Assembly: GCF_000689395.1 (NCBI RefSeq)
Contig: NZ_HG966617.1
Coordinates: forward strand, 138,075-202,074
Direction of reading: 5' to 3'
Origin: Candidatus Phaeomarinobacter ectocarpi
GTDB taxonomy: Bacteria > Pseudomonadota > Alphaproteobacteria > CGMCC-115125
DNA length: 64,000 bases
Part shown: positions 8,336 through 56,362 of the stretch, one piece after another
Position numbering within the stretch: the first letter of the stretch is position 1
Layout: every line of letters starts with the position of its first letter
Program-made: the position numbers and the translations under genes
The notes under the pieces: model-generated
The model's database searches: none
The model's input: only the letters and a program-made list of their open reading frames with translations
What the model was told of the DNA's origin: nothing

Positions 8336-8419
8336 GGCGTGTCCTTCACAACCCAAGTACGTTTCCTGAATTCGCATATGTAACATGAAAAACCGGCAAA
8401 AGAAAAATAAAGTTATAAA

Positions 8420-14516: not shown

Positions 14517-14563
14517 TGGGTTTCCTTGCGAATGGGGGGTGCAGGGTTACGGGGTATCTGAGA

Positions 14564-15601: not shown

Positions 15602-15630
15602 GCGCTTCCTCGTGTGGCGAACGCCGCCGG

Positions 15631-16242: not shown

Positions 16243-16318
16243 GGATGATCTCCCCGTGATCGGTCTGGTATCGGCACATGTCTGTTTGTTTTTCTAACCC
16301 GTGTTTTATCAGCTAGAG

Positions 16319-16332
16319 TGTTTTGGAAAACA
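16319..16332. promoter_or_regulatory. 14-bp palindrome between divergent GST and SDR genes
   Basis: TGTTTT-GG-AAAACA is an inverted repeat with 6-bp arms, 55 bp before the SDR ATG and 77 bp before the GST ATG. It may be an operator, but no regulator gene is adjacent; the nearest is the LysR gene at 17997. Confidence 0.35.
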
Positions 16333-16386
16333 AAAAATGACATAGCGACTGCCATTTTTTGGTCGCGCAGGTATCGGGATGAAACA

Positions 16387-27529: not shown

Positions 27530-27555
27530 AAAAACTCCGTACAGGGAACGAAAAC

Positions 27556-36576: not shown

Positions 36577-36617
36577 GGCAGTTGCCACTGACGGATAAGA
36601 ACCTGAAACAGCACACC

Positions 36618-36651
36618 ACACCGGTCCGTCTCGAAGCAGGCGGGCCGGTGT
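36618..36651. terminator. GC-rich hairpin after amidohydrolase gene
   Basis: ACACCGG-T-CCG and CGG-G-CCGGTGT can pair across a 14-base loop, in the gap before the nitroreductase gene. No T-run follows, so it is a weak terminator candidate only. Confidence 0.3.
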
Positions 36652-36685
36652 CGCCGCTCTTAGTCTTTTACCGGGGAACCTGAAT

Positions 36686-37306: not shown

Positions 37307-37316
37307 GGTACCGGGT

Positions 37317-38306: not shown

Positions 38307-38351
38307 CTGCTGTGCTCCTTTTCATTGGCCTAACGTCAGGGGGCCCGAAAG

Positions 38352-38957
38352 TCAGGACGCCATGATTTCCTCTTCCATCTGGCCGAGGCGTTCCTTGCCG
38401 AAGAACATCTCCTTGCCGACATAAAAGGTGGGAATGCCGAAGGCTCCACGTTCGACCGCCGCAGACGTATTGTCCACAAGCTTCTGCTTCACGGCCGGGT
38501 CCTGTGTGCGAGCCAACAGGTCTGCGCCATCAAAACCCGCCTTGGTCATCGCCGCTGCATAAACCTCCGGGTCATCCATCTTGAGGCCCTCTTCCCACAT
38601 ATGGGCAACGCCCGCATCGACATATTCCATGAGCCGACCGTCCATCTCAGCTGCGATGGCGCCGCGCATCATCAAAAGTGTGATGACCGGGAAGTGCGGG
38701 TTCATGGCGAATTTGGAGAGGTTGTGCTTCTTGATAAAGCGCTGCATCTCCAGCCCGTCATAATCCAGTTTTCCCTTGATGCCGTTGAACGCCATCATCG
38801 GAGCCTGGTTGCCGGTCGCCTTGAAGATGCCGCCGAGCAGGCAGGGGATGTAGTTGAACGTTGCGCCGGTGCGCGCGGCGATCTCAGGCAGCACCTTGTG
38901 GCACATATAGGCATTCGGGCTGGCGAAATCGAAAATGAAATCTACGGTCTTGGTCAT
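38352..38957 (-). CDS. DsbA-fold 2-hydroxychromene-2-carboxylate isomerase-like protein
   Basis: Kappa-class GST-like isomerase, 201 residues. A thioredoxin fold with the FDFASPNAYM active-site segment (Ser in place of the DsbA CxxC) and the LGGIFKATGNQAPM region match HCCA isomerases, which use glutathione in aromatic ring degradation. The C-terminal YVGKEMFFGKERL is also conserved. The start at 38957 is preferred over 39005. It is the middle gene of the SDR-isomerase-CmcJ operon, spaced 10 bp and 45 bp from its neighbours. Confidence 0.85.
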   Translation of the reverse strand: MTKTVDFIFDFASPNAYMCHKVLPEIAARTGATFNYIPCLLGGIFKATGNQAPMMAFNGIKGKLDYDGLEMQRFIKKHNLSKFAMNPHFPVITLLMMRGAIAAEMDGRLMEYVDAGVAHMWEEGLKMDDPEVYAAAMTKAGFDGADLLARTQDPAVKQKLVDNTSAAVERGAFGIPTFYVGKEMFFGKERLGQMEEEIMAS

Positions 38958-38967
38958 TGGTTTGTCC

Positions 38968-39702
38968 TTACCAGGTTTCTTTCCATGGGCGCATATCAAG
39001 CTCATGGGTCCATGCGGTGCGCGGCTGCTTGTGCAGCATCACATAATTCTGGGCGATGTGGTCTGGATTGAGGATCGCGTCTTCGTCACGCATCTGATCC
39101 ACATTCGGGTACATCTCACGAATGAAATTAGAATCGATGGCTCCATCAATGATGGTGTGAGCCACATGAATGTTTTTTGGTCCCAGTTCGCGCGCCATGC
39201 TTTGCGCCAGAGCCCGAAGCGCATGTTTGGCACCTGAAAAGGCTGACAGTGTTTCGCGTCCGCGGACGCTGGCTGTGGCGCCCGTGAAAATGATCGTTCC
39301 GCGCTCGCGTTCCATCATGCGTTTGGCCACTTCGCGCCCCATCAGGAAACCGGCGAAACACGCCATTTCCCAGACCTTGCGGTACACCCGCGCGGTGGTG
39401 TCAGCAATCGGGAAACTGACATTGGCGCCGATGTTGAAGACGGCGACCTCTAGCGGTCCTATTTCTTTTTCAATCCGGTCAACCAGAGCAACCATCTCAT
39501 CTTCGTCGCGGGCGTCTGCAGGCATGGCAACCGCTTCATGCCCTTCATCGCGAATGCTCTGCGCCAGCTCCTCAAGCGCTGCTGCATGGCGGTCACGGCG
39601 AACCACGCAGGAGACCATGCCCTCTCGCGCAAACGCGCGGGCAATGGCGCTACCAGTGTCGTCCCCGGCGCCAATGATGAGGCAGGATTTCTTGTCAGCC
39701 AT
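38968..39702 (-). CDS. SDR family protein with Tyr-to-Phe change in active site
   Basis: Short-chain dehydrogenase fold, 244 residues. The N-terminal IIGAGDDTG and NIGAN replace the usual glycine motif and NNAG. A Ser is in FTGATAS, but the catalytic YxxxK motif reads FSGAK, so the tyrosine is replaced by phenylalanine while Lys is kept. This may alter or remove redox catalysis. The start at 39702 removes 12 upstream residues. It is first in the operon with the isomerase and CmcJ-like genes and faces an HxlR regulator. Confidence 0.83.
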   Translation of the reverse strand: MADKKSCLIIGAGDDTGSAIARAFAREGMVSCVVRRDRHAAALEELAQSIRDEGHEAVAMPADARDEDEMVALVDRIEKEIGPLEVAVFNIGANVSFPIADTTARVYRKVWEMACFAGFLMGREVAKRMMERERGTIIFTGATASVRGRETLSAFSGAKHALRALAQSMARELGPKNIHVAHTIIDGAIDSNFIREMYPNVDQMRDEDAILNPDHIAQNYVMLHKQPRTAWTHELDMRPWKETW

Positions 39703-39754
39703 TCTATGTCCTCCCACCCGCTGAGGGATGCGGGTCATTTGGTTGTTTTTCTAT

Positions 39755-41552: not shown

Positions 41553-42431
41553 ATGGCCGACAGCTTTCGCGACAAGAAGAAGTTTCAGACCGTTCACGGC
41601 AAGCAGATGGCCTATATCGAAGAAGGCGAGGGTGATCCCATCGTCTTCCTCCACGGCAATCCCACATCGTCCTATCTGTGGCGCAACATCATGCCGTATC
41701 TCGCGGGCAAGGGCCGCCTGATAGCGCCTGACCTCATCGGCATGGGGGACTCAGACAAACTCGATGACAGCGGCCCTGACCGCTACACATATGTGGAGCA
41801 CCGCAAATACCTGTTTGCCCTGCTGGAACAGCTGGGTGTCACAAGCAATGTCACCCTGGTAATCCACGACTGGGGCTCCGGTCTTGGATTTCACTGGGGG
41901 CATAAAAACCCGTCCGCTGTCAAAGGCATTGCCTTCATGGAGGCCATTGTCGCGCCGATTCCCAAATGGGATCAGTTTCCTGAAGGCGCGCGCGAGATTT
42001 TTCAGGGCTTCAGGTCGCCGGCCGGTGAAGACATGGTGCTGGAGCAAAACATGTTCGTGGAAGGCGTGCTCCCCACATCCATACTCCGTACCATGACAGA
42101 CGAAGAAATGGACGAATATCGCCGCCCCTTTGCTGAGGCCGGTGAGGGCCGCCGCCCAACACTCACATGGCCGCGCCAGATCCCCATCGAAGGCGAGCCC
42201 GCGGACGTTGTTGAGATCGTCAGTAGTTATGGCGCATGGCTGGCTGAAACACAGATTCCCAAACTGTTTGTGAATGCTGAGCCTGGCGCACTGATCGCCG
42301 GTCCCGTCCGCGATCTGGTTCGGACCTGGCCAAACCTCACCGAAGTCACCGTGGCCGGATCACATTTCATTCAGGAAGACTCCCCTGATGAGATCGGCAA
42401 GGCGGTCGCTGACTGGCACGCCAAGCTCTGA
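41553..42431 (+). CDS. Haloalkane dehalogenase, subfamily II
   Basis: Cytoplasmic haloalkane dehalogenase of the DhaA/LinB type, 292 residues, hydrolysing haloalkanes to alcohol plus halide. All expected active-site residues can be seen: Asn36 in HGNPTSS and Trp107 for halide stabilisation, nucleophile Asp106 in IHDWGSG, Glu130 in FMEAIV and His271 in AGSHFIQED. Length and layout equal characterised enzymes. The divergent TetR gene and shared palindrome suggest inducible expression. The natural substrate is unknown. Confidence 0.93.
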
Positions 42432-42601: not shown

Positions 42602-44032
42602 ATGCATTCTTCAAACGAGCAGATTGCTTTTTTCAATGAGACGGGCGACGGCGCAGAAGTGCGCCCGCCTTACCGTGAATTGCTGTCGTGGATTGAAGCT
42701 CAGGGCCCCGACGCCCTGTCGCTGAAAAACCGTGAAGCGGAAACGCTGTTTCGCAAAATCGGCATCACCTTTGCCGTTTACGGCGAAGGCGGCAGCCCGG
42801 AACGGCTCATTCCATTTGATATTGTCCCCCGCATCTTTACAGCGTCTGAATGGGGACTCCTGAGCCAGGGTGTGAAGCAGCGCGCCCGCGCGCTCAACAT
42901 GTTCCTCAAGGACGTCTATCACCGCGGCGACATTATCCGCGCAGGGATTATTCCAGCCGACCTTGTGTATCTCAATGAGTCCTACGAGCCCGCCGTCGTC
43001 GGCATCACGCCGCCGCGCAGCGTCTATAGCCATATCGTAGGTACGGACATTGTCCGCGTCGGCGCCAATGAGTTCTACGTGCTGGAGGACAACTGCCGCA
43101 CGCCATCCGGTGTCTCCTATATGCTGGAGAACCGCGAAATCATGATGCGCATGTTCCCGGATCTGTTTTCCGGACGCCGCATCATGCCGGTGGATGATTA
43201 TCCCAACCTGCTGCACAAGACCCTGTCATCGGTGGCGCCCCACAAATGTGAGGGCGACCCGGTTGTGGTGGTCCTGTCGCCTGGCTCATTTAACAGTGCC
43301 TATTACGAGCACTCCTTTCTGGCCGACCAGATGGGCGTTGATATCGTTGAGGGCAAGGATTTGTACGTAGACGGAGAATTCGTCTACATGCGCACCACCC
43401 AGGGCCCGCGCCGTGTGGATGTCATCTACCGCCGCCTTGATGATCCTTACATTGATCCGTTGTGCTTTCGGCCGGACTCGCTTTTGGGTGTGCCCGGGCT
43501 GATGAATGTCTACCGCTCGGGCGGCGTTGCCATCTGCAGCGCGCCGGGCGCCGGTGTGGCCGACGATAAGGCCATTTACATCTACGTGCCTGAAATGATC
43601 CGCTTTTATCTGGGCGAGGAACCCATCCTCAAAAACGTGCCCACATGGAAGTGCGGTGACCCAAGCGAATGCGCGTATGTGCTGGAAAACATCAAGGACC
43701 TTGTCGTCAAGGAAGTGCACGGGTCCGGTGGCTACGGCATGTTGATCGGGCCGCGCGCGACGGCTGCGGAGATTGAAGCCTATATCGCCCGCATCAAGGC
43801 CAAACCAAGTAACTTCATCGCCCAGCCGACGCTGGCCCTTTCAACCTGCCCGACTTTCGTCCAGCAGGAAATTGCCCCCCGGCACGTGGATTTCAGACCG
43901 TTCTGTCTTGTCGGCAGCGGCATCCATCTGCCCGCTGGTGGCCTCACCCGCGTCGCCCTCAACAAGGGATCGCTGGTCGTCAATTCAAGCCAGGGCGGCG
44001 GTGTCAAAGACACCTGGGTCCTGGCAGATTAA
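42602..44032 (+). CDS. Circularly permuted ATP-grasp protein of Anbu cluster
   Basis: Predicted ATP-dependent ligase with a circularly permuted ATP-grasp fold, 476 residues. The N-terminal part has PYRELLSWIEAQGPDAL, FKDVYH-like motifs and LNESYEPAV; the ATP-binding part contains VVVLSPGSFNSAYYEHSFLA, DVIYRRLDDPYIDP and VVKEVHGSGGYGMLIGP. Families in this context are thought to make peptide-like bonds. Genes for alpha-E, transglutaminase and Anbu follow on the same strand with small gaps, a conserved gene set. Confidence 0.88.
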   Translation: MHSSNEQIAFFNETGDGAEVRPPYRELLSWIEAQGPDALSLKNREAETLFRKIGITFAVYGEGGSPERLIPFDIVPRIFTASEWGLLSQGVKQRARALNMFLKDVYHRGDIIRAGIIPADLVYLNESYEPAVVGITPPRSVYSHIVGTDIVRVGANEFYVLEDNCRTPSGVSYMLENREIMMRMFPDLFSGRRIMPVDDYPNLLHKTLSSVAPHKCEGDPVVVVLSPGSFNSAYYEHSFLADQMGVDIVEGKDLYVDGEFVYMRTTQGPRRVDVIYRRLDDPYIDPLCFRPDSLLGVPGLMNVYRSGGVAICSAPGAGVADDKAIYIYVPEMIRFYLGEEPILKNVPTWKCGDPSECAYVLENIKDLVVKEVHGSGGYGMLIGPRATAAEIEAYIARIKAKPSNFIAQPTLALSTCPTFVQQEIAPRHVDFRPFCLVGSGIHLPAGGLTRVALNKGSLVVNSSQGGGVKDTWVLAD

Positions 44033-44043
44033 TCGGTGATGAC

Positions 44044-44994
44044 ATGTTAAGCCGCACGGCTGAGAACATATTCTGGATTGCCCGTCTGACGGAGCGTGCC
44101 GAAAACATGGCGCGTATGCTGGAGATGGGATATCGCATGGCGATGATGCCGGCGTCCGGTGCCGGGCACCGCAACGAGTGGCGGTCGATCATCGCCGCTG
44201 CGGGACGCAAGGCGGATTTTGACGCCAACTATGACGCAACCAACCAGCGCATGGTGTGCGACTACCTGATTTTCGACGAGGACAATCCCTCAAGCATCGT
44301 CAATTGCGTACGTACAGCGCGGGAAAACGCGCGTGCCGTGCGCACAGCTTTGACGACCGAAATGTGGGTCGCCCTCAACGAAACCTGGATTGAGCTGCGC
44401 GATATGAGCCCGGCTCAGATGGCGGCTGGTGGCCTGCCCACCTTCCTGGACTGGGTGAAGGGTCGCACCGGTCAGTTCCGAGGCGCCACGGATTCATCCA
44501 TGCTGCGCAGCGATGGTTATGACTTCCTGAGGACAGGGTCGTTCGTGGAGCGCGCCGACAATACGGCACGCCTGCTGGACGTGAAATATTACGTGTTGCT
44601 GCCTGAGTCGGAGAGCGTGGGCGGCGGCATCGACAATTACCAGTGGACAACAGTGCTGCGTGCGCTGTCGTCCCACCGGGCATTCCACCATACCTACCGG
44701 TCTGACTATACGCCCTGGAGCATCGCGGATTTCTTGATCCTCAACCGACAGTGCCCCCGGTCGCTGCTGTATTGCTACAGCCAGGTGGGCGAGCATCTCA
44801 CCCAGCTCTCCCGACGGTATGGCACGCGCTCGAAGAGCCTGAGCCTCACCAACAACGTGATCGCCAGACTTGCAGACAATGTAGCGGACGACATTTTTGA
44901 AGTCGGCCTGCACGAATTTCTGACCGACTTTATTCGTCAAAATGCGGAATTGTCTGAAACCATGACTGAAGACTTTCATTTCGGGTGGAGCTAG
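44044..44994 (+). CDS. Alpha-E domain-containing protein
   Basis: Helical protein of 316 residues, of the alpha-E family that occurs with ATP-grasp and transglutaminase genes. Features are MLSRTAENIFWIARLTERAENMARML at the start (in family order), FVERADNTARLLDVKYY in the middle and RAFHHTYRS. No catalytic residues are established, and it is thought to act with the ATP-grasp protein. It starts 12 bp after that gene and ends 3 bp before the transglutaminase gene. Confidence 0.88.
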   Translation: MLSRTAENIFWIARLTERAENMARMLEMGYRMAMMPASGAGHRNEWRSIIAAAGRKADFDANYDATNQRMVCDYLIFDEDNPSSIVNCVRTARENARAVRTALTTEMWVALNETWIELRDMSPAQMAAGGLPTFLDWVKGRTGQFRGATDSSMLRSDGYDFLRTGSFVERADNTARLLDVKYYVLLPESESVGGGIDNYQWTTVLRALSSHRAFHHTYRSDYTPWSIADFLILNRQCPRSLLYCYSQVGEHLTQLSRRYGTRSKSLSLTNNVIARLADNVADDIFEVGLHEFLTDFIRQNAELSETMTEDFHFGWS

Positions 44995-44997
44995 TCG

Positions 44998-45834
44998 ATG
45001 CGTCTGAAAATCGAACACCGCACCCGCTATGCCTTTTCAGAGCCCGTGCGCTTTGTCGTCCAGAGCCTGAAGCTGACACCAAGCCGCCACGAAGGCCAGA
45101 AGCCGGTCAACTGGTCTGTCACCGCAGAAGGCTGCCAGATCACAGCCGGGTTCACCGACGGGTACGGGGACGAGATTTTGACACTCACCTGCCCGGAGCC
45201 GCGCACGGAAGTCGACGTGCTGGTCAGCGGTGAAGTCATTACAAAAGACACCTCCGGCGTTCTGCGCGGCCACGCCGAGCAGATCAAGCCGCGCGCCTTT
45301 TTGCGCGCAACAGACCTGACCGAGCCTGACAGCAACATTCGCGATCTGGCGATGAGCGTGGCCGCAAGTCAGGGCGCTGACGAAACCGGTCAGCCCGGCA
45401 CCCTCGACCTGGCCCATGCACTTGTGGCTGGTGTGGCGGATGCCATTGCCTACACCCCTGGTACCACCCACGCGCAAACCAGGGCGGCTGAAGCGTTGGA
45501 AGCCGGGCACGGGGTCTGCCAGGACCATGCCCATGTGATGATTTCAGCGGCCCGTGTGCTTGGCCTTCCGGCCCGCTACGTCAGTGGATATCTGTTCACC
45601 GACGCCAATGGGGAGACCCATGAGGCGGCCCATGGGTGGGCGGAGATCGCCCTCGATGGCCTGGGGTGGGTCGGTTTTGACGTCTCGAACCGCTGCTGTC
45701 CCACCGATGGATATATTCGGTTGGGATCAGGGCTGGACGCGCGCGACGCAGCTCCCCTAAAAGGTGTACATTCCGGCCTCGCGGATGAGGACATGGATGT
45801 GACCCTGTCCGTACAGGAAGCCCAGCAACAATAA
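44998..45834 (+). CDS. Transglutaminase-like cysteine peptidase family protein
   Basis: Transglutaminase-fold protein, 278 residues. The N-terminal beta domain starts MRLKIEHRTRYAFSEPV. The catalytic triad is visible: Cys in GHGVCQDHAHVM, His in HGWAEI and Asp in FDVSN. Such proteins act as peptidases or amide-bond hydrolases or ligases. It is third in the Anbu gene cluster, where it may cut or make the peptide tag produced by the ATP-grasp protein; that idea is an inference from context in many genomes. Confidence 0.9.
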   Translation: MRLKIEHRTRYAFSEPVRFVVQSLKLTPSRHEGQKPVNWSVTAEGCQITAGFTDGYGDEILTLTCPEPRTEVDVLVSGEVITKDTSGVLRGHAEQIKPRAFLRATDLTEPDSNIRDLAMSVAASQGADETGQPGTLDLAHALVAGVADAIAYTPGTTHAQTRAAEALEAGHGVCQDHAHVMISAARVLGLPARYVSGYLFTDANGETHEAAHGWAEIALDGLGWVGFDVSNRCCPTDGYIRLGSGLDARDAAPLKGVHSGLADEDMDVTLSVQEAQQQ

Positions 45835-45864
45835 AGTTCAGCGGGCTTTGGAGGATACCGAATC

Positions 45865-46614
45865 ATGACGTATTGCGTCGGCCTGATGGTAGATCAGGGC
45901 CTCGTATTTCTGTCTGACACCCGCACCAATGCGGGCATCGACAACATTGCCCGCTTCCGAAAGATGTTCACCTGGGAAGTCCCCGGCGAGCGGAGCCTGG
46001 TGCTGATGACGGCAGGCAACCTGGCCACCTCTCAGGCTGTGGTGAGCATGCTGGAGGAAGGCATAGAGGCAGGCACATCCGAAGAAGCAGCCGCAATGCT
46101 TGGGGACAATGCGCTCCCATCATTGCTGAAGGCCCCCAATATGTTCCGCAGCGCTGAGATTGTCGGTGAAGCGATGGTCGCTGTGCAAAAGCGTTTCCGC
46201 AAATCGCTTGACCAGATGAACGAAGCCGGTGGCTCGACGATGATCCTTGGTGGTCAGCGCAAGGGCGGCACACCGCGCCTGTTTTTGGTTTACCCCGAGG
46301 GAAACTGCATCGAGGCGACGGAAGACACGCCGTTCCTGCAAATCGGTGAGCACAAATACGGCAAGCCCATTCTGGACCGGGTCATCGCCAGGGACACACC
46401 CCTGGAAGAAGCCCGGAAGGCGGCTTTGCTGTCGATGGACTCAACTCTGCGCAGTAACCTGTCGGTCGGAATGCCGCTGGACCTTGCTGTCCTGCCAACG
46501 GATACCTGCACGCTCTCAGAGCGCCGCCGCATCGAAGCGGACGACGAGGATTTTCACACGCTCAGTGAGAACTGGTCAGCGGCCCTCAAGGACGCTTTCC
46601 ACGGCATTCTGTAG
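45865..46614 (+). CDS. Anbu, proteasome-related peptidase
   Basis: Bacterial proteasome-like protein of the Anbu family, 249 residues. The mature N-terminal nucleophile would be Thr2 after removal of Met in MTYCVGLMVDQGLVFLSDTR, and Asp18 and a Lys in the FRKMF region fit the proteasome active site. Anbu proteins form open helical rings and their substrate is not settled. It closes the cluster of ATP-grasp, alpha-E and transglutaminase genes. Its last 39 bases overlap the convergent flavin reductase gene. Confidence 0.9.
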   Translation: MTYCVGLMVDQGLVFLSDTRTNAGIDNIARFRKMFTWEVPGERSLVLMTAGNLATSQAVVSMLEEGIEAGTSEEAAAMLGDNALPSLLKAPNMFRSAEIVGEAMVAVQKRFRKSLDQMNEAGGSTMILGGQRKGGTPRLFLVYPEGNCIEATEDTPFLQIGEHKYGKPILDRVIARDTPLEEARKAALLSMDSTLRSNLSVGMPLDLAVLPTDTCTLSERRRIEADDEDFHTLSENWSAALKDAFHGIL

Positions 46615-47174
46615 GACGCCGCCAGTCATCGAGGATCGCACACCTTCCACCACCTGCCGCGCCAGCAGGTGAAGGTGATCATCCGTCTGTGCAAGGCGCG
46701 CCTCTGATTTGTCCGCACTGTTGAACGCCACGCCAAACGGCGTGGGTGATCCGCGCAACGCGTGGGTGATGTCGCGTAACATGCCAAGGGTCGTGACGGC
46801 GCCCTGCATGCCTGCACCCGCAGCAACCAGCCCGACAGATCGGCCATCGAAATAGGGGCGCGTGTCCTTGCTGAGGTCTTCCACATAGTCGAGCGCGTTT
46901 TTCAGCAGCCCCGAGACAGACCCATGATAGCCGGGCGAGCCGATGATAATGCCGTCTGCACGGCGCAGCGCCTCTACCAGAGCTACAGCCTGCGGTGTGC
47001 GGCCAGGATTCTCGGGGCATAGAACGGCATCTCAAGCGCCGGGCCCGCGAGCATCAATGTGTCAGCGCCCATGCGTGAAGCATGGGCAAGGGCGGCTTCA
47101 ACGGCTAGCTGCGTCGAAGACCCATGCCGCAAAGTGCCGCCAAGTCCGACAATCAGAGGAGCGCAATCAGCCAT
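46576..47174 (-). pseudogene. NADPH-dependent FMN reductase, frameshifted
   Basis: NADPH-dependent flavin reductase-like flavodoxin fold, expected to make reduced FMN. The first part, starting at 47174, reads MADCAPLIVGLGGTLRHGSS to MPFYAP. The frame then breaks in a GGGG run at 47014-47017 and continues in another frame as ENPGRTPQAVALVEALRR, GSPGYHGSVSGLLKNALDYV and SVGLVAAGAGMQG to 46576. One base appears missing in the run; adding it restores a normal 199-residue protein. It lies last in the P450 operon and could be a sequencing error. It overlaps the Anbu gene end by 39 bases. Confidence 0.75.
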
Positions 47175-47180
47175 CAGTCG

Positions 47181-47936
47181 TCAGACGGCGACATAGGCAC
47201 CGTCCAGCGGCAGGGCGGCACCATTCACATAGGCCGCTTTGTCGCTACACAGCCATGCACACAATTCGCCAACTTCGCTTGGCTCTGCCATGCGCTTGGC
47301 CGGAATATTGTCGATGAGCGGGGCAAGCACTTCCGGTGTTGTATCAAGGACGTTTTGAACGAGCTGTGTTTTGACAGCACCGGGACACACCGCATTGATG
47401 CGAATGCCCTGGGCCGCATACTCAGCTGCCGCGCTCTTGGTCATGCCGACAACACCATGCTTGGCGGCGGCATATTGTACGATCTGAGCACCGCCGATCA
47501 GCCCCATGATGGACGCAATATTGATGATGACGCCGCTGCCCGATGATTCCATATGCGCCAGCTGATGCTTCATGCACAAAAAGACACCACGCAGATTGAC
47601 GGAAATGACCTCGTCAAAATCCTCCGTCTTTGTTTCGGAGAAGGAGCAAAGCGCGCCTTCAATGCCCGCATTGTTGATGGCGAAATCAACGCTGCCAAAG
47701 CGGCCAACTGCATCGTCGAAGGCTTGCGACACGCTTTTTTCGTCGCGGACATCGCCCTGTGTGCAGGCGACACTGCGGCCTTCCGCGGTGAGATCTTTTT
47801 CGATCTGGTCAGCCGCATCACCATTGAGATCAAACCCCGTGACGTTTGCGCCATAGCCCGCAAACACGCGTGCCGTTGCCGCGCCGATGCCAGAGCCGAT
47901 GCCAGTGATGAAGACTGTTTTTCTACTGAGGTCCAT
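47181..47936 (-). CDS. SDR family oxidoreductase (P450 operon)
   Basis: Classical short-chain dehydrogenase, 251 residues. TGIGSGIG near residue 11, NNAG near 88, Ser in NIASIMG and YAAAK for catalysis are present, and the end has VNGAALPLDGAY. The start at 47936 is used; 47987 gives a non-family extension. It lies between the P450 gene and the flavin reductase pseudogene in the same direction, so it probably oxidises the alcohol produced by a monooxygenase. Confidence 0.88.
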   Translation of the reverse strand: MDLSRKTVFITGIGSGIGAATARVFAGYGANVTGFDLNGDAADQIEKDLTAEGRSVACTQGDVRDEKSVSQAFDDAVGRFGSVDFAINNAGIEGALCSFSETKTEDFDEVISVNLRGVFLCMKHQLAHMESSGSGVIINIASIMGLIGGAQIVQYAAAKHGVVGMTKSAAAEYAAQGIRINAVCPGAVKTQLVQNVLDTTPEVLAPLIDNIPAKRMAEPSEVGELCAWLCSDKAAYVNGAALPLDGAYVAV

Positions 47937-47989
47937 GGTCCGTTCTTTCCAATGTCCGCGCCTTACCGACGTCTCGCTGGTGTGCATTG

Positions 47990-49210
47990 CTAGTGGAATT
48001 CAATTGGCATCTTGCCCAGCACGCGGAAGAAGGACTCCGACCAGGCGCAATCGTCATACTGAATTTCTGCCTTCGGCAAGCGAGACACAAAGGCATGAAA
48101 GGCCCGGCTGGCCTCCATGCGTGCGAGCTGGTTGCCAAGGCAGGTGTGGGCGCCGCCGCCAAATGAGGCGTGGCTGATGCCCTGCCGGGTGATGTCCATG
48201 GTGTCAGGATCATCATGAACGCGCGGGTCATGATTGGCAGCCCCGAGCATCATCCAGAGAACCGCATTTTCCGGCAGCGTCTTGCCGCCAACTTCATAGG
48301 GCTCCGTCAGAACACGCCAGTTGAACAGTACCGGCGTGTCATATCGCAGGCATTCCTCAACCGTGTTCTTTGCAAGGTCCGGGTTCTGTTTCAGCAGCTC
48401 TGCCTGGTCCGGATTCTCGATCAGTGCCTTGGTGCCGTTACCAATCAGGCCGATGGTCGTTTCAAACCCGGCAATCAGCAGCCCGATGGCCTGAATGGCC
48501 AGCTCAACGTCACCCAGCCGGTCGCCTTTTTCCTCAGACTGAATCAGATTTGTCAGCAGGTCCTCACGCGGGTTGGCGCGGCGCAGTTTGATCTGCGCCT
48601 CGAAATAGTCCGCCATCTGCTCGCCCGCCTGCCGCGTATGTTCAACCACATCTTCCGGCAGGAAGCGGGCAAAGAACGCGTTGGTGCGTGCCGCCGTCCA
48701 CACAGTGAACTGATCAATATCCTCTTCCGGCAGCCCCATGATCCGGCAGATCATGCGGGAAGGAATGCGCAGGGCAAAATCCTCAACCACTTCCATGCCG
48801 CCCTGCTTGAGGGCCGTATGCATGGCCTCGTCCACAACCCGGTCAATCTCACCTTCGATGTGCTTGAGAGCCTTTGGGGTGAAAGCCCCCAGAACCAGAC
48901 GGCGCAGGCGCGCATGCTCGGGACCATCCATGTTGAGCATAAAGTCACGGAAGCTGCCGCGACGGTCCTGGTCGTCCATATTCGGGGAGGACCCATCTGC
49001 CAGCGTCTGGCTCGTGGGTGCATTGCGGAACACGTCCACCACATCCGCGTGGCGCGAGATGCGCCAGGGACCAACAGGTGTTTCGTTGACGGGATCTTTT
49101 TCCCGCAACTGGTTCATGGCTGGATACGGATCATCCCGGAAGCTGGGCGCAAAGGGGTTTGCCCCGGCCCATCCATCATCTTCGACCTCGGGTGTTGGGG
49201 CGCCGGTCAT
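47990..49210 (-). CDS. Cytochrome P450
   Basis: Soluble heme monooxygenase of 406 residues. The I-helix oxygen-binding motif is LLIAGFETTIG, the K-helix ExxR is ECLRYDT, and the heme Cys357 lies in FGGGAHTCLGNQLAR. No membrane anchor is present, as in bacterial class I P450s; ferredoxin and ferredoxin reductase partners are not in the operon. It overlaps the DUF3237 gene by four bases (ATGA), and an SDR and flavin reductase follow. The substrate is probably a hydrophobic molecule. Confidence 0.92.
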   Translation of the reverse strand: MTGAPTPEVEDDGWAGANPFAPSFRDDPYPAMNQLREKDPVNETPVGPWRISRHADVVDVFRNAPTSQTLADGSSPNMDDQDRRGSFRDFMLNMDGPEHARLRRLVLGAFTPKALKHIEGEIDRVVDEAMHTALKQGGMEVVEDFALRIPSRMICRIMGLPEEDIDQFTVWTAARTNAFFARFLPEDVVEHTRQAGEQMADYFEAQIKLRRANPREDLLTNLIQSEEKGDRLGDVELAIQAIGLLIAGFETTIGLIGNGTKALIENPDQAELLKQNPDLAKNTVEECLRYDTPVLFNWRVLTEPYEVGGKTLPENAVLWMMLGAANHDPRVHDDPDTMDITRQGISHASFGGGAHTCLGNQLARMEASRAFHAFVSRLPKAEIQYDDCAWSESFFRVLGKMPIEFH

Positions 49211-49704
49211 TTTGCACCTCCCGCGACTTTAAAGACGTCATAGATGACTTTGCCCGAGCCAAACTCGCGCATGCAGCCAATAAACACATGGCGGCCAAGC
49301 CATGCGTGCTTTTCAGAGTCGGTTTGAAAATAGGGCGTCGAGTAGAAGTACATGGCGTCGCCGGGAATTGTGCCGCCGGCCTGAATCGTCTCGATCTGCT
49401 CCGGCGTCATGTCGCCGATGCCGTTGTAGTGGCAATAGGCGTGTGAGCCGTCGTCCAGTAGGACAGAGAAACGAACATCCAAGTACCAGACACCATTTGG
49501 CATGATGGTGATCCAGTCCCCCGCAGGGGAAACGCTGGACCCCTTGATATCTGGCCCGTGCATATCGATGCTGGTCACGTTCCAGACCATCTGGGTGCCC
49601 ACATTGTGCACCGGGGTCGCAACAGCATCCCATGTAAACGCGTATTCAAGTTTTGGCGCTACGGCCCCTACAGGCGCACCTGATCCATCGGCTCCCATAT
49701 CCAC
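49207..49704 (-). CDS. DUF3237 domain-containing protein
   Basis: Small beta-barrel-like protein of 165 residues with DUF3237 features: PKLEYAFTW at the start, SSVSPAGDWITIMPNGVWYLDVRF in the middle and YFYSTPYFQTDSEKHAWLGRHVFIG towards the end. Its function is unknown; it may bind or protect a small hydrophobic molecule. It is the first gene of the P450 operon and is translationally coupled to it. A CCTACC-N6-GGTGGG motif lies 60 bp upstream. Confidence 0.8.
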   Translation of the reverse strand: MDMGADGSGAPVGAVAPKLEYAFTWDAVATPVHNVGTQMVWNVTSIDMHGPDIKGSSVSPAGDWITIMPNGVWYLDVRFSVLLDDGSHAYCHYNGIGDMTPEQIETIQAGGTIPGDAMYFYSTPYFQTDSEKHAWLGRHVFIGCMREFGSGKVIYDVFKVAGGAK

Positions 49705-49764
49705 TCCCCTTGAGCTTTGTGTGGTCTTGTTGAGGGGAGTGTCGGAGATTTACCGGTCGGCAAA

Positions 49765-49782
49765 CCTACCCATTTGGGTGGG
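49765..49782. promoter_or_regulatory. 18-bp motif A, likely LuxR-family operator
   Basis: CCTACC-CATTTG-GGTGGG is a near-palindrome (one mismatch between arms) upstream of the DUF3237-P450 operon. It matches motif B at 52579 at 13 of 18 positions, so both probably bind the MalT-type regulator coded between them. Confidence 0.55.
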
Positions 49783-49784
49783 CT

Positions 49785-52496
49785 TTAGGGGGAGAGGTCA
49801 AAAAACTGGGCTGCTTTGGCAGCAGCTGTGCGGTTTTTGACGTTCAGCTTGGCAAAAAGATTCTTCAGGTGCCACGCAACCGTGTTGGGGGTAATGCCGT
49901 TCTCGGCGGCGATCTGTTTGTTGGTCTTGCCGGCCGCAAGCGCTGCCAGAAGCGTCCGCTCCCGGCGTGTCAGGTCCTCCACCGGTTCAATCGCCTCCTG
50001 CGCATGAGCAAACTCAAGCTTCACCGAGAAGAGCGCGGCGAGCTCGCCCAGATAGCCATCATCGATGGGCGGCAGATTGCCCGCCCGTCCTTGCGCGATG
50101 CGTCTTAGCGTATCGCGCATGAGGGTTTCGCAGCCCCATAGCTGATCCAGGAAGAGGCGCAGATAGCGGCCTGGTGCGGCACGGGAAATCGCCTTTGCCA
50201 GCTGGCGTGTGGCCCGATCATCCTTACCGGCCTGGTGCAGCGCGCGCACATCCAGCAGCAGGAACCGGATCAGGGCACCGGTTCGCCCGGAGGCTTCCGC
50301 CTCCACCAGAAACGGCGTGAGCAGACTTCGGGCCTGTTCAATGTCGCCTTCCAGCGTCAGCAACAGCGCCTTCGCACGTACAAAGTGACTGCGGGAGCGC
50401 GGCCAGATGCGATGGGAAATGGGTGTGTCGTTGGCCGTGATGCGATCGAGGTCCTCAACCACGTCTGCGGCCTGCGCCAGCCGCCCCATGGATGCCAGAC
50501 AGTTCACCCGTTCCGCCAGCGCATGAACCAGCAAACGCCGGTGACCTTCCTGATGGCCGACAATTTCCGCCTGCGCCAGGACACCCAAAGCTGCGATGGC
50601 GCCATCGCGTGCCCGTGCATGACGTGCCTTGGTCAGGTAGTAGGCGATCAGGGCGTCAATCACCGAAGAGCCGGTCTCAACGCCTTCGGCCTGTTCAAGG
50701 CTTGCCTCGGCCTGTGGCAGTTCATTGCGCTCATACTCTATCTCCGCAATGAAGGCATGCGGCATCGGGAAATCCGATTTGAAATGCATGGCTGCGAGAA
50801 GCGAGATCGACATGAACGTGGCGCGCGCCGCATCGAGGTCGCCGGAAATGTTCTCGCCGACCCCCTTGAGGACTGCGGCATAGATGGCACCCAGATAGTT
50901 CTGCGACTGGGTTTGCAGTTCCGATGCAAACTCCGCAAGCCGTGACGCGCGATCAAGACTGCCGGAGAAAATCTGCGCATAGATCACAACGTCCAGCAGG
51001 ATGCCCTGATGGAACGGCGACAGATGCTCAAGACCGGAAAGATCAATATCGCTGAGATAGGCAATGGCCTCTGCATCATCGGCCACATAAAGGATCGCGC
51101 ATTCCAGCAGGAACGCCTCCAGCTCAAACGGGTCCTTGGGCAGCAGGAGCGGCGCGCTGGACCGGATGTCCGGCACCTCGATTGTCGCCAGAACCTCGTT
51201 TGCTTTACCGACCTGTCGCCGCAGCAGCAATGTCCAGCCCAGCGCAATGCGCAACTCGGCACGCCCGGCCAGAGTGTCCGCCGGAAGCATGTTGATCCAG
51301 GCGCCAAGCTGACCTACCCGATAAAAACTCAGGAATGCCCGCCATATGTTTTCAAGGGCATCCGCCGTTTCTTCCCACATCTCCGCTTGAATGCCGTGGC
51401 GCACCGCGTGTTCGTGGAGGTCATGTGCCAGAAACCACCGGTGGGCCCGCTCATGGCGGTGCTTGGCGGTCTGCGGGTCCGTCTTGAAGTGCTGCTTCAG
51501 AAAATCGCTGAACAGATGGTGATAGCGGTACCAGCCCGCCTCTTCATCAACCGGCTGCAGGAACAGGTTAAGCCGTACAAGTTCTTCCAGCTTCGCTTTG
51601 CTGCCCGTGCTTTCAGTCACCTGGTCGCACAATTCAGGCACCAGCAGATCCAGGTCCGCAGTATCACGCAGGAAATCTCGCGCGCTCTGCGAGAGATCGC
51701 CGATCACATCATGGGCCAGAAACTCCATGACGTCGGTGTTGCCCGCCTTGAAGTTTTCAATGAACTGATCAGCGGAGCCCGATTTCGACGTGACAATGGC
51801 GGCCACTTGCAGGCCAATGGCCCAGCCATCTGTATACCGATGAATGGTGTTGAGTTGCTCCTCATCCAGTGTCAGCCCATAGCCTGCTTTGAGAAAGTCG
51901 CGCGCTTCATCAATGCTGAAGCGCAGGTCGCCGGTGCGCACCTCAATCACCTGGTCCCGCACCTTGAGGGAGGCAATGTTGAGATTGGGAACCGTCCGGC
52001 TTGCCACGACCAGGCAGAAGTTGGGCGGGGCGCCGTGCAACAACTGCTCGAGTATTTCGTTGGTCTCGGCTGTTTCTGCGCGATGAAAATCATCCAGAAA
52101 AAGCGTGATCTCGCCTTCCAGTTGACGAATGTCGTGCAGCAGACCGCTCACCATCATGTCCTGCGAGGTACTGGCAAGCTGGTTAAGGCTTTCCGGGGAC
52201 AGGCTGTCCGCACCCGCTTTGGCCGCGGCGATGCCGGTGGCAAGGGAACTGAGAAAAACCTGCGCCGTCTGGTCGTTTTCCTCCAGCGACACCCAGGCAA
52301 CTGTCTCATCCTGGGCGGCCAGTTCCCGGCACCGGTGCGCCAGCAGATTGGTCTTGCCATAGCCTGCGGGGGCCAGCGTGAGGGTCAAAAGATGCCGCTG
52401 GCGGCCTTCGATTGCTTTTGTGAGGTCCGGGCGCGGCACAACATAGCCACGCGGAAGCGGCGGCTGAAAACGCGCAGAATTCAAGAACAATGACAC
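49785..52496 (-). CDS. MalT-like LuxR family regulator with STAND ATPase
   Basis: Large signal-transduction ATPase (about 903 residues) of the MalT/LAL type. A Walker A motif APAGYGKTN is near residue 45, Walker B as FLDDFHRAE near 140, a long TPR-like helical sensor region follows, and the C-terminal LuxR HTH reads LTRRERTLLAALAAGKTNKQ and TPNTVAWHLKNLFAKL. Such proteins are activated by ligand binding plus ATP. The GTG at 52496, with GGGGAG eight bases before it, is preferred to a TTG at 52535. It lies between the P450 operon and the divergent LLM gene. Confidence 0.88.
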   Translation of the reverse strand: MSLFLNSARFQPPLPRGYVVPRPDLTKAIEGRQRHLLTLTLAPAGYGKTNLLAHRCRELAAQDETVAWVSLEENDQTAQVFLSSLATGIAAAKAGADSLSPESLNQLASTSQDMMVSGLLHDIRQLEGEITLFLDDFHRAETAETNEILEQLLHGAPPNFCLVVASRTVPNLNIASLKVRDQVIEVRTGDLRFSIDEARDFLKAGYGLTLDEEQLNTIHRYTDGWAIGLQVAAIVTSKSGSADQFIENFKAGNTDVMEFLAHDVIGDLSQSARDFLRDTADLDLLVPELCDQVTESTGSKAKLEELVRLNLFLQPVDEEAGWYRYHHLFSDFLKQHFKTDPQTAKHRHERAHRWFLAHDLHEHAVRHGIQAEMWEETADALENIWRAFLSFYRVGQLGAWINMLPADTLAGRAELRIALGWTLLLRRQVGKANEVLATIEVPDIRSSAPLLLPKDPFELEAFLLECAILYVADDAEAIAYLSDIDLSGLEHLSPFHQGILLDVVIYAQIFSGSLDRASRLAEFASELQTQSQNYLGAIYAAVLKGVGENISGDLDAARATFMSISLLAAMHFKSDFPMPHAFIAEIEYERNELPQAEASLEQAEGVETGSSVIDALIAYYLTKARHARARDGAIAALGVLAQAEIVGHQEGHRRLLVHALAERVNCLASMGRLAQAADVVEDLDRITANDTPISHRIWPRSRSHFVRAKALLLTLEGDIEQARSLLTPFLVEAEASGRTGALIRFLLLDVRALHQAGKDDRATRQLAKAISRAAPGRYLRLFLDQLWGCETLMRDTLRRIAQGRAGNLPPIDDGYLGELAALFSVKLEFAHAQEAIEPVEDLTRRERTLLAALAAGKTNKQIAAENGITPNTVAWHLKNLFAKLNVKNRTAAAKAAQFFDLSP

Positions 52497-52578
52497 CCAA
52501 GGCTCCCCAAGCGACCCTGATCGCAGACCCCCCAATCATGTGGGGTTTTTCAAGCCTAGCGACATCGATTTTGCACAC

Positions 52579-52596
52579 CCCACCAGTTTTGGTGGC
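52579..52596. promoter_or_regulatory. 18-bp motif B, likely LuxR-family operator
   Basis: CCCACC-AGTTTT-GGTGGC contains a perfect CCACC/GGTGG inverted repeat. It lies in the gap shared by the regulator and the LLM monooxygenase, 83 bp from each start, and matches motif A at 49765 in 13 of 18 positions. Confidence 0.55.
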
Positions 52597-52678
52597 TTGG
52601 AGCCAGCCCGGATCAGCCACCTTGTGACCAGAACGACCGATTTCCGGTCGTAAAAAGCAGCAAAACGGGGAGATTCCG

Positions 52679-53764
52679 ATGCGTGTTGGGCTTCAGATGG
52701 TTTTTCAGAACTACGAAAAGCGCGTGCCGGACGCGCAGGTGTTCCGCGAGGAAGCGGCTAACGCCATTTTGGCCGACGAGCTCGGCTTCGATGAGATCTG
52801 GCCGGTTGAACATCACTTTGCAAATTACGCGTTCTGCCCGGACAACATGCAGTTTCTGAGCTACATCGCGCCGCAGACAAAAAACATCAAGCTGGGCACC
52901 GGCGCCGTCATCCTGCCGTGGAATGATCCTTACCGCGTCGTCGAAAAGATGATCATGCTCGACATCCTGTCCGATGGCCGCGCGATGTTCGGCATGGGCC
53001 GCGGCCTGTCGAAAGACGAGTACGAACCCATGGGCATCTCCATGGATGAAGCACGCGGCCGCTTCGACGAAGCTGCGGAGATCATTCTGGAAGGTCTTGA
53101 GACCGGCAAGCTGTCCGCTGACGGAGAATTCTGGAAGCGCGGCGAGACAATGGTGCGTCCGGCGCCCATCGGCTCCTTCAAGGGGCGGTCCATGTCCGTG
53201 GCCATGTCACCGGATTCAGCACTGCAGGCTGCCAAGCTTGGTGTGGGCGTGATGATGTTCACCCAAAAACCTGCCGAGGCGCTGCTGCCTGACCTTGATC
53301 GGTATCGTGATGCCTTCAAGGAGCATCACGGCACGCCATCGCCTGCTCCGCGCTTTGCAGACTTTGTGTACTGCTCAAGCGATGCCGCGGAAGCCGAGGA
53401 AAAAGGCTTCTCCAACATTGCGGCATACTACTCCCAGGTGATGCAGCACTACGACCTGATGGGTGAGCACTTCTCTAAAATGAAGGGCTATGAGTCTTAC
53501 GGTGAGGCTGCCGAGATGCTGAAGGACATCGGCCTTGAAGATCAGGTGCGCGGCTATGTGGATCAGCAGGCCTATGGCACGCCGGACCAGATCCTCACCA
53601 AGCTCGAAAATCGCCGCAAGGTGCTTGGCCCATTCTCGTTGAATGCCTGCTTCCGCTATTCAAACCTGACGAATGAGGACGCCCAGGCGAGCATGAAGCT
53701 CTTTGCCAAGGAAGTACTTCCCGTGGTGCGCGAATGGGACAAGGAACACGATCAGGCTGCGTAA
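52679..53764 (+). CDS. LLM class flavin-dependent oxidoreductase
   Basis: Luciferase-like flavin-dependent monooxygenase, 361 residues, of the bacterial luciferase alpha-like group. It has the TIM-barrel start MRVGLQMVFQNYE, the WPVEHHFANYAFCPDN segment and LGTGAVILPWNDPYRVVEK near residue 65. These enzymes use reduced FMN and oxygen, usually supplied by a separate reductase; a candidate reductase gene sits 5 kb away in the P450 operon. It is divergent from the LuxR-type regulator and followed by a strong terminator. Confidence 0.9.
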   Translation: MRVGLQMVFQNYEKRVPDAQVFREEAANAILADELGFDEIWPVEHHFANYAFCPDNMQFLSYIAPQTKNIKLGTGAVILPWNDPYRVVEKMIMLDILSDGRAMFGMGRGLSKDEYEPMGISMDEARGRFDEAAEIILEGLETGKLSADGEFWKRGETMVRPAPIGSFKGRSMSVAMSPDSALQAAKLGVGVMMFTQKPAEALLPDLDRYRDAFKEHHGTPSPAPRFADFVYCSSDAAEAEEKGFSNIAAYYSQVMQHYDLMGEHFSKMKGYESYGEAAEMLKDIGLEDQVRGYVDQQAYGTPDQILTKLENRRKVLGPFSLNACFRYSNLTNEDAQASMKLFAKEVLPVVREWDKEHDQAA

Positions 53765-53789
53765 CCGCTAGACCGGCGTCTGGAAAACC

Positions 53790-53828
53790 AACGCCCCTTC
53801 GGCACATGCCGGAGGGGCGTTGTCTTTT
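53790..53828 (+). terminator. Intrinsic terminator after LLM gene
   Basis: AACGCCCC-T-TCGGCA pairs with TGCCGG-A-GGGGCGTT around a 2-base centre, with one imperfect pair, followed by GTCTTTT. It ends the monooxygenase transcript. Confidence 0.8.
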
Positions 53829-53900: not shown

Positions 53901-54644
53901 TTACTCCGGAGCAGGGACCAGGTGGCGCCAGAGGATCGTGTTGTCGATCTTGATGTCTTCCGTCCAGATGAGAGAGGCAGTGGGGTCCCAGTCGATGTCG
54001 TTGTAGCCAAACCGGGCACCGATCTCATCGACGGTGTATTCGGTGGCATCGACCCAGCCGGTATCGTCATAGTTCTGTGCTTTCCAGCCATCAGGAGCGT
54101 CGACCGAATAGAATTCACAGTCGGTGAGAGGTTGGGTGGATTTTTCACAGTCTGGATTGAGGGGCGCCCTGTGCAGAACCAGGCCACGCCAGTCCTTGGA
54201 TGTGGTGGCAACCAGTCTGCCGCTGTCGGTCTCTGTCACCTGGGCGATGAATCCGCCGTCGCCGATCTGCTGGAAGAACGTGAAGCTGGCGCTTACAGGG
54301 AACAGGCCAAAGAACGAGCCGATATACTCAAGCCCGCTGTCATTCTCGATATAGTCGCGTGTCACCACCGAAAGGGTCAGCGGGTAGGCCGCACGAAAAG
54401 TGAAGGTGTCCGAGTTGAACGAGCGGATTTCCGTTACAGGCGTGGAATCTTCGCCGACAAGCTCGCCGTTCACGTAGAACTCAAACCAGTTGTCCGCCCA
54501 CACGGACACGGTGAAGTCGCGCTCACCGCCGTTTGGCGTGCGTGCTTCTTCAGATTGACCGGTGCTTGCGGTTGCGGAAAATCCAATGAAAGCCGACAGC
54601 ACCAGCAGGGATCGACGAATAAGCAATGTAGTTCTCGCATGCAT
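53901..54644 (-). CDS. Hypothetical secreted protein near sulfatase
   Basis: Unrecognised exported protein of about 247 residues. A signal peptide (basic start, hydrophobic core, ATA-ST cleavage) is clear. The mature part is beta-rich, and the segment DFTVSVWADNWFEFYVNGEL resembles a carbohydrate- or ligand-binding jelly-roll domain, with a second similar half near WDPTASLIWTEDIKIDNTI. The start at 54644 begins the signal peptide. It is on the same strand as the sulfatase, 101 bp behind it, so the two may act on the same polymer. Confidence 0.62.
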   Translation of the reverse strand: MHARTTLLIRRSLLVLSAFIGFSATASTGQSEEARTPNGGERDFTVSVWADNWFEFYVNGELVGEDSTPVTEIRSFNSDTFTFRAAYPLTLSVVTRDYIENDSGLEYIGSFFGLFPVSASFTFFQQIGDGGFIAQVTETDSGRLVATTSKDWRGLVLHRAPLNPDCEKSTQPLTDCEFYSVDAPDGWKAQNYDDTGWVDATEYTVDEIGARFGYNDIDWDPTASLIWTEDIKIDNTILWRHLVPAPE

Positions 54645-54745
54645 GATGTGATGCCTCTTGAATCGACTTTCAGTTTTGAAGTGCAGTGGCTGAACGCTTG
54701 TCACCGCCGGACAGGTTTGTGTCTCAAGGATATGTGGAAAATGCG

Positions 54746-56362
54746 CTAGTCAGTAAACACAGCCTCAGCCCACGGCGTACGGTCTTCCTCACCGCCGAAG
54801 AAATCAGGATCATCAACGACATCCTGCAATGGCAGCGCGACATTCTCACCGCGCGGAAACGCCTGCAATGTGGCCTGCAGCGAAGCCGCTAGCTCCGGCT
54901 GGTCGTCCGAAAGGTCATTTGTTTCAAGCGGGTCGGCCTCTACATTGAACAGCAGCGTATCGCCGTTCGCATACTCAATCAGTTTCCATGGATAGCGGTA
55001 TATCGCTGCGCTGAGTGGCTTGGGCCCTGAGGGAACAATGACGTCATTTGCAGGCAGCACTGCGCCACCGGCAAGGGCGGGCCAAACCGAGCGCCCGTCC
55101 AGCTCTCCCGTGCTCACCGGTGTGCTGGATATCGCCAGAACGGTCGGCAGGACATCCTGAACAGCGATCATCTGCTCTGACTTGCAGGGGGCCAGAACGC
55201 CCGGCCAGTGGACAAGGGAAGGAACCCGCATCCCGCCTTCCCACAGTGACCCCTTGCCGCCCTGAAGCGGCAAATTGCTTGACCCGGACTGGGTGAGGTT
55301 GACCCGCATGAATTCCAGCATCCGTTCGGATGGATCCACGTCGTAGCGCAACCCAAGTCCGATGCCGAGTACCCAGTCCGGCAACCAGTTTACGATGTCC
55401 ACATTCACCAGGCCGCCATTGTCACTCATGAACCAGATCATGGTGTTGGTGAGCATGCCCTCGTCCTCAAGTGTGGAAACGAGTTTGCCGATCGCAGCAT
55501 CCAGCTCTGTAACCATGGCGGCGTGAGTCCGCCGTTTGTCATCCTTAATGGAGGTGTAGGCATCAATCGCTGCTTCAGGCGCTTCGTTGGGAAGATGCGG
55601 CGCGTTGAAGGAGGCAAAAAGAAACAGTGGTTGATCTGGATCACGCCGCTGAATGACATCAACGGCCTCGTCCGCCAGCAGGTGCGTCAGATAGCCGTCG
55701 TCGCGCGTCGTCTTGCCATTGCGCTGCAGGTCGTATCCACCGCCATGCACCTTGTCCCAGAAGCCGACGCCGCCGGTGGTATGGCCATAAAAGTGATCAA
55801 ATCCGCGCGCATTGGGGAGGTAGTCGCGATGGCGCGCGCCCAGATGCCATTTGCCCACAAGTGCCGTTTGATAGCCGCGTGCCTTGAGACGTTCTGCAAG
55901 GGTTGTCTCTTCGATCGGCAGGCCGGTGGGATTGTTCTTGGAGAGAGGTGCAGCGATGCCCAGACGCAGGGGAGACTTGCCGGTCATCAGCGCGGCGCGT
56001 GTTGGGCTGCAGGTGGGCTGAACATAAAACCGGTCCAGCACGACGCCATCCGCAGCCAATTTGTCCAAATTGGGCGTGCGGATCTCGCTGCCATGATACC
56101 CGACATCATTCCATCCTAAGTCGTCAGCCATGATGATGACGATGTTCGGCGTGCTCTCGATTGGTATAGGGACAAAGTCCGTACGGACATCGTTGGTGGG
56201 GGCGGGCACAGTGTTGGGGGTATCGACCGCACCAGCGAAGCCTTCACCACTGTCATCACAGCTGGCAAGTGCAACGGACACCGCCAGAATTGCACAGACA
56301 TGGCGGGCTCTCCCTTTCTGCGGGCGGTCCTCGACCATCGGTGCGTCAGTGCATGGTGTCAT
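54746..56362 (-). CDS. Lipoprotein sulfatase (arylsulfatase B-like)
   Basis: Type I sulfatase of 538 residues that hydrolyses sulfate esters. The active-site Cys118 in PTCSPTRAALMTGK is the expected formylglycine precursor (C-x-P-x-R), metal ligands include the Asp pair in MADDLGWNDVG, and LVGKWHLGARHR and a DNGGLVNVD segment follow. The N-terminus has a lipobox LASC (Cys35), so it is probably tethered in the periplasm. A good ribosome site supports the ATG at 56362. A tandem operator is about 95 bp upstream. No maturase gene is seen here. Confidence 0.9.
   Translation of the reverse strand: MTPCTDAPMVEDRPQKGRARHVCAILAVSVALASCDDSGEGFAGAVDTPNTVPAPTNDVRTDFVPIPIESTPNIVIIMADDLGWNDVGYHGSEIRTPNLDKLAADGVVLDRFYVQPTCSPTRAALMTGKSPLRLGIAAPLSKNNPTGLPIEETTLAERLKARGYQTALVGKWHLGARHRDYLPNARGFDHFYGHTTGGVGFWDKVHGGGYDLQRNGKTTRDDGYLTHLLADEAVDVIQRRDPDQPLFLFASFNAPHLPNEAPEAAIDAYTSIKDDKRRTHAAMVTELDAAIGKLVSTLEDEGMLTNTMIWFMSDNGGLVNVDIVNWLPDWVLGIGLGLRYDVDPSERMLEFMRVNLTQSGSSNLPLQGGKGSLWEGGMRVPSLVHWPGVLAPCKSEQMIAVQDVLPTVLAISSTPVSTGELDGRSVWPALAGGAVLPANDVIVPSGPKPLSAAIYRYPWKLIEYANGDTLLFNVEADPLETNDLSDDQPELAASLQATLQAFPRGENVALPLQDVVDDPDFFGGEEDRTPWAEAVFTD

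Follow-up and report, generated by a model that had tools for sequence, protein, structure and literature searches.

We analysed a gene block at positions 46576–53764 of a 64,000-nucleotide window from the genome of Candidatus Phaeomarinobacter ectocarpi Ec32 (positions 138075–202074 of its single 3,415,905-base contig). Ec32, an alphaproteobacterium, occurs with the brown alga Ectocarpus; its genome was recovered from the algal assembly with no isolate (PMC4110880). Profile scans of the open reading frames (ORFs) of the window with Pfam and NCBIfam models identify genes for a short-chain dehydrogenase/reductase (SDR), a cytochrome P450, a DUF3237 protein and a MalT-type regulator on the minus strand, and a gene for a luciferase-like flavin-dependent monooxygenase (LLM) that diverges from the regulator on the plus strand. 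This gene set and layout agree with a preliminary description of the locus, apart from an NADPH-dependent FMN reductase that had been listed as intact and is split between two frames. The locus was compared with the genomes of a sister species (G003), of PL25b_bin.27 (a metagenome-assembled genome, MAG), of the Rhodobiaceae MAG FE80 and of another member of the genus (G001). Several of the related loci are MAG contigs, and the comparison includes four genomes of the order.

The minus-strand genes are closely spaced. The SDR (47181–47939) belongs to the classical type (adh_short_C2, E 7e-63), while the P450 (47990–49210; p450, E 9e-24) carries the haem-cysteine motif FGGGAHTCLG, the ExxR motif as ECLR and the I-helix motif AGFETT, all three conserved among the members of the module. 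The gene for the DUF3237/UPF0311 beta-barrel protein (49207–49704; PF11578, E 3e-24; possible start at ATG 49698) overlaps the P450 start by 4 bases. The regulator gene (49785–52496) encodes a STAND ATPase of about 903 amino acids that has the features of the MalT/LAL class within the LuxR family: a P-loop ATPase, a MalT-like tetratricopeptide-repeat (TPR) region (PF17874, E 1e-27), a C-terminal GerE helix-turn-helix (HTH; PF00196, E 6e-18) and a length of about 900 residues. Its Walker A (APAGYGKT) and Walker B (LFLDDFH, or LFLEDFH in FE80) motifs are kept in three species, and its match to the NCBIfam MalT model (E 5e-91) lies below the curated cut-off of that model. Comparison with FE80 places the regulator start near 52496, and the TTG at 52535 chosen in the preliminary description is probably too far upstream. 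Reading the STAND protein as a defence system was rejected, as the matches are weak and confined to the HTH part. The LLM gene (52679–53764, plus strand; Bac_luciferase, PF00296, E 3.7e-49) is followed on the same strand by an intrinsic-terminator-like hairpin of 15 pairs (53789–53822).

The set recurs outside Ec32 in conserved order, as the preliminary description would lead one to expect. G003 has the identical six genes in the identical order (locus L028); PL25b_bin.27 has SDR-P450-DUF3237-regulator on one contig and the LLM with the start of the regulator on another; and FE80 has SDR-P450-DUF3237-regulator//LLM at 63–84% identity. This core is thus found in four species at differing genomic locations. 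The SDR is 88, 85 and 63% identical to that of Ec32 in G003, PL25b_bin.27 and FE80, respectively, and the P450 98, 95 and 74%. Strong purifying selection acts on the five core genes, with dN/dS (the ratio of nonsynonymous to synonymous divergence) between 0.019 and 0.057, including 0.019 for the LLM, 0.021 for the P450 and 0.055 for the SDR. G001 is without the regulator, the LLM and a P450 ortholog. Between Ec32 and G003, dS is low in the P450 (0.46) and the LLM (0.71) compared with the regulator, the SDR and the flanking genes (about 1.0–1.7), which suggests codon constraint or recent exchange of these two genes.

The block occupies different sites in Ec32 and G003. The protease gene that flanks the block in Ec32 lies about 370 kb away from the block in G003; at the site that the block takes up in Ec32, G003 has an apparent glutathione S-transferase gene, flanked by the protease gene and the counterpart of the gene at 53901. 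On the LLM side, homologous DNA extends no further than the LLM stop codon. A search for direct repeats flanking the block, considered as a sign of a mobile element, gave only weak and chance-like ones. Plasmid carriage was likewise rejected, since at most 4% of the block is matched by DNA in any plasmid record, and no plasmid carries a DUF3237 protein at E 1e-12. After the block, G003 has (L028:12856–19290) genes for an NmrA protein, an aromatic-ring FAD hydroxylase, a TetR regulator, a second P450, an FAA hydrolase and an extradiol-dioxygenase-like protein; the genes beside the G003 block have no DNA match in Ec32 except a 62-bp fragment.

Aligning both intergenic gaps from the four species reveals a CCACC-N6-GGTGG dyad in each gap of all four (4/4); the second gap carries a GGTAGG variant in the three Phaeomarinobacter genomes. 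In Ec32 one candidate operator (49765–49782, CCCACC-N6-GGTAGG, with a dyad here in all four species) precedes the DUF3237-P450-SDR operon, and the other (52579–52596, CCACC-AGTTTT-GGTGG) lies between the regulator and LLM genes, about 83 bp from each start; the core of the latter is identical in G003 and PL25b_bin.27, and its spacing is the same in FE80. A second, less regular dyad, CCCCAATCATGTGGGG (52530–52545), directly upstream of the regulator start, has weaker evidence. The pattern CCACC-N6-GGTRGG matches twice in the window, both times in the gaps of the block, with 0.09 matches expected. The whole Ec32 genome has four exact matches, two of them in the block gaps and two inside genes; G003 has three (two in the block) and the block-free G001 one. 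From these match counts we estimate the chance of finding one site in each gap to be on the order of 1e-7. The shared dyads are good evidence for a single factor controlling both the LLM and the operon; the simplest candidate is the regulator encoded between them. Judged from the sequences, the block is very probably one co-regulated unit, and the earlier treatment of the set as a unit is upheld both by its co-occurrence in other genomes and by the operator-like dyad common to the LLM and operon promoters. In FE80 an ORF for an outer-membrane, autotransporter-like protein (570–1640) has a related dyad, CTACCCATTTAGGTAG, some 120 bp upstream (L074:434–449); the ORF may be a further regulon member, or the dyad a chance match.

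More distant relatives of the block differ in their partners. A MAG labelled Candidatus Azophilus has LLM-SDR-P450-DUF3237 on one strand, with genes for a TetR regulator and an FMO-like FAD monooxygenase diverging from them (L087). In a further genome, G349, SDR-P450-DUF3237 is followed by an FMO-like FAD monooxygenase, TetR is divergent, and no LLM is present on the 11-kb contig. The P450s of all these blocks form a single clade with a local support of 1.0, and the nearest tree members outside it reach no more than 42% identity. By this comparison of gene orders, the constant core is SDR-P450-DUF3237, while the regulator and the oxygenase partner vary. Among 398 genomes of the phylum, no P450 relative at E 1e-85 was found besides the Ec32 P450 itself, and a P450 search around the order of G349 gave no additional relatives. 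The regulator was tried and rejected as a marker beyond the genus. There are relatives at about 30% identity, but in the stretches examined none stands beside the P450, and one of them adjoins an LLM of only 27% identity (L035).

The structure model of the LLM has the luciferase-like TIM barrel and matches LuxA, RslO1 and a diketocamphane monooxygenase (DKCMO). By sequence the nearest solved structure is RslO1 (7bip, E 5e-35), with 8cbb and LuxA also matched. RslO1 differs from the block LLM in being biosynthetic, in having a presumed reductase, RslO2, and in its proposed epoxidation (PMC8093152). The model of the DUF3237 protein (mean predicted local distance difference test score, pLDDT, 78) matches UPF0311 structures and has the UPF0311 barrel fold. 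The entries matched include 3c5o, 3g7g, 4pux and 6jjs, with a Z score of 19.1 and a root-mean-square deviation of 1.9 over 148 residues for 3c5o; more distant matches are cyclases and dirigent proteins. PinX belongs to the same Pfam family (PMC12607616), and its relatives include PhcF and PhcG; these proteins carry out decarboxylation with ring opening (PMC12607616, PMC12997858), which makes a cofactor-free DUF3237 step after oxidation plausible. PinX and PhcF/PhcG act in lignin-dimer pathways, with partners other than those in the block.

We propose, tentatively and at somewhat less than even confidence for the chain as a whole, that the block is an inducible, transferable catabolic (or detoxifying) cassette. 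In this proposal, the MalT-type regulator would use its STAND/TPR part to bind an inducer and its LuxR-type HTH to bind the dyads, switching on both transcription units. The P450 would hydroxylate a hydrophobic substrate and the SDR would convert the alcohol to a ketone. The LLM would then insert oxygen beside the ketone in a type II Baeyer-Villiger-like reaction, with free reduced FMN supplied by other reductases of the cell, and the DUF3237 barrel would carry out a subsequent step that needs no cofactor, for example ring opening, decarboxylation or a stereocontrolled rearrangement. Worded to cover the wider family, the proposal is of a mobile inducible cassette in which a cyclic substrate is oxygenated by the P450 and the SDR together with one of two partners, an LLM or an FAD monooxygenase, the DUF3237 protein brings about ring opening or decarboxylation, and the MalT-type regulator has its own dyad operator; we regard this version as possible, though still short of probable. 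The cyclic substrate could plausibly be an algal terpenoid, sterol or phenolic. Both the substrate and the compound sensed by the regulator, which the preliminary description had also addressed, are matters that we can only infer.

Known systems supply precedents for the parts of this scheme. In the camphor route, a P450, a dehydrogenase and an FMNH2-dependent LLM, a type II Baeyer-Villiger monooxygenase (BVMO), perform the first three steps, and the reductase Fred is chromosomal and lies outside the plasmid cluster (PMC6352141). The block resembles the pathway of Pseudomonas putida ATCC 17453 (a P450, the dehydrogenase camD, the LLM-type BVMOs camE25/camE36 and Fred) in its succession of P450, dehydrogenase and LLM and in that its reductase may be encoded elsewhere (PMC6352141). 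It differs in its MalT-type regulator, in its DUF3237 gene and in having no redox partners for the P450, which cam-type clusters include, and its LLM is about 18% identical to 3,6-diketocamphane monooxygenase. In progesterone catabolism, an LLM and an FAD-dependent BVMO are functionally redundant and a linked flavin reductase is not needed (PMC12239570). The pdc cluster of Caenibius tardaugens and Novosphingobium (BVMO, TetR, LuxR-type regulator, LLM) shares with the block an LLM together with a LuxR-type regulator. However, the regulator on pNL2 has 381 amino acids and is similar to that of the block in the HTH only, and no P450, SDR or DUF3237 protein is named in the pdc cluster. Membership of the block in the pdc type was ruled out, given that it has no BVMO or TetR and that its LLM is 25% identical. 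The MalT-type activator AlkS switches on alkane oxidation (PMC3664771), so that AlkS-type (LuxR/MalT) activators likewise regulate nearby oxidation genes, with other enzymes than those of the block, where CCACC-N6-GGTGG dyads were found.

The way in which LLM and FAD monooxygenase are exchanged beside an invariant core follows the progesterone pattern and favours ketone oxygenation by the LLM. Several observations weigh against the proposed chain. No ferredoxin or ferredoxin reductase is found among the block genes, and only position suggests that the block's own regulator binds the dyads. Identity between the LLM and the Novosphingobium counterpart of the progesterone LLM is 25%, 3,6-diketocamphane monooxygenase comes 24th among its structural matches (18% identity), and RslO1, the nearest solved LLM by sequence, is a proposed epoxidase (PMC8093152). 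With identities and rank this low, the Baeyer-Villiger role is an analogy.

A literature search found no description of the SDR-P450-DUF3237-regulator//LLM set, which is not proof of absence. The parts of the block are of known kinds; the combination and the operator are new. The cassette links DUF3237, a barely characterised family that 6 of 5.39 million papers searched mention by name, to a defined oxidative context in several lineages; a role following a P450/SDR/monooxygenase sequence thereby becomes testable. The dyad operator together with the MalT-type regulator offers a handle for finding the inducer and hence the substrate. The LLM/FAD monooxygenase swap, if true, would extend the LLM/BVMO redundancy known from progesterone catabolism.

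The strongest alternative keeps the same regulon and takes the LLM to be an epoxidase or aromatic hydroxylase, as proposed for RslO1 and MsnO8, in a cassette for opening aromatic or polyene compounds such as algal phenolics. It is a serious possibility, although we think it unlikely. The proposed epoxidation by RslO1 speaks for it, as do the aromatic-ring FAD hydroxylase, FAA hydrolase and extradiol-dioxygenase-like genes adjoining the G003 block and the fact that DUF3237-type decarboxylases of known substrate act on aromatic dimers. However, those G003 genes are not with the block in FE80 and, but for the short fragment, have no counterpart in Ec32 DNA, so they may be no part of the route. 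A ketone intermediate, as in the proposed cassette, is favoured both by the SDR and by the FMO-like alternatives to the LLM.

The disrupted FMN reductase (46576–47174, minus strand) bears on the supply of reduced flavin. Its N-terminal part (46983–47174) runs into a stop, and its C-terminal part (46576–47028), the only part matched by FMN_red (PF03358, E 1e-18), lies in a different frame, whereas G003 has one continuous frame of 185 amino acids across the domain. The Ec32 gene has also lost its native 3′ end, which is replaced at the edge of the block; its final codons run antisense to the 3′ end of the adjacent protease gene, and homology to the reductase of G003 declines before this overlap. 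The gene diverges much faster than its neighbours (dN 0.15–0.23 versus 0.01–0.07), and no FMN reductase was found in the 21-kb FE80 stretch where the other five block genes are conserved. In the proposed cassette the linked reductase would be accessory, and in Ec32 it would have decayed. With the reductase broken in Ec32 and absent from the FE80 stretch, the phrase 'complete oxidation module' used in the preliminary description is wrong for Ec32, and its suggestion that the linked reductase feeds the LLM is, on the same two observations, not supported. LLMs of this kind are known to draw on reductases whose genes lie elsewhere (PMC6352141, PMC12239570). A functional Ec32 reductase that does feed the LLM, with the frameshift a sequencing error in a genome co-assembled from the algal project, is a minority possibility that we rate as rather improbable. 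Both parts are near the intact G003 ortholog at the protein level (80% and 70%), and the assembly comes from the Ectocarpus project and not from an isolate (PMC4110880), so the frame break itself could still be an error. Sequencing error alone is insufficient given the altered 3′ end, and the fast divergence and the absence from the FE80 stretch also count against it.

Less probable still is a biosynthetic role, in which the cassette would produce or modify a secondary metabolite rather than break a compound down. LLM, P450, SDR and DUF3237-fold proteins are all known from biosynthetic clusters (RslO1; the 6jjs and PloI4 matches), but no synthase or scaffold gene was recognised in or beside the block in Ec32, G003 or FE80, and MalT-type inducible regulation suits catabolism better. 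That unrelated oxidoreductases lie together by chance in a region rich in catabolic genes, with the operon alone a unit, is very improbable: the window is rich in SDRs, hydrolases and oxidoreductases and SDRs lie near 44 of 80 LLM relatives, but retention of the set in four species at different genomic places, the shared dyads and the homology break at the LLM stop codon oppose it, and conservation has already largely refuted it.

The surroundings of the block look catabolic in the ORF list, with hydrolase-, SDR-, glutathione S-transferase-, nitroreductase- and isomerase-like genes dense at 7379–8386, 13443–17885, 26693–28341, 35407–39738 and 41553–42431. A row of ATP-grasp-like, alpha-E-like, transglutaminase-like and proteasome-type protease genes (42602–46614) is kept in G003 and G001, and we take it to resemble the known Anbu-type neighbourhood. 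On the other side, a secreted-looking protein without a Pfam match (53901–56362) adjoins a sulfatase, and the secreted-looking gene is present in G003 at the block-free site. Elsewhere in Ec32, four P450 genes form a tandem array (G000:C1:2921588–2926748) with a counterpart in G003 (C1:1191124–1196284), and contig C507 of genome G002 carries a similar array.

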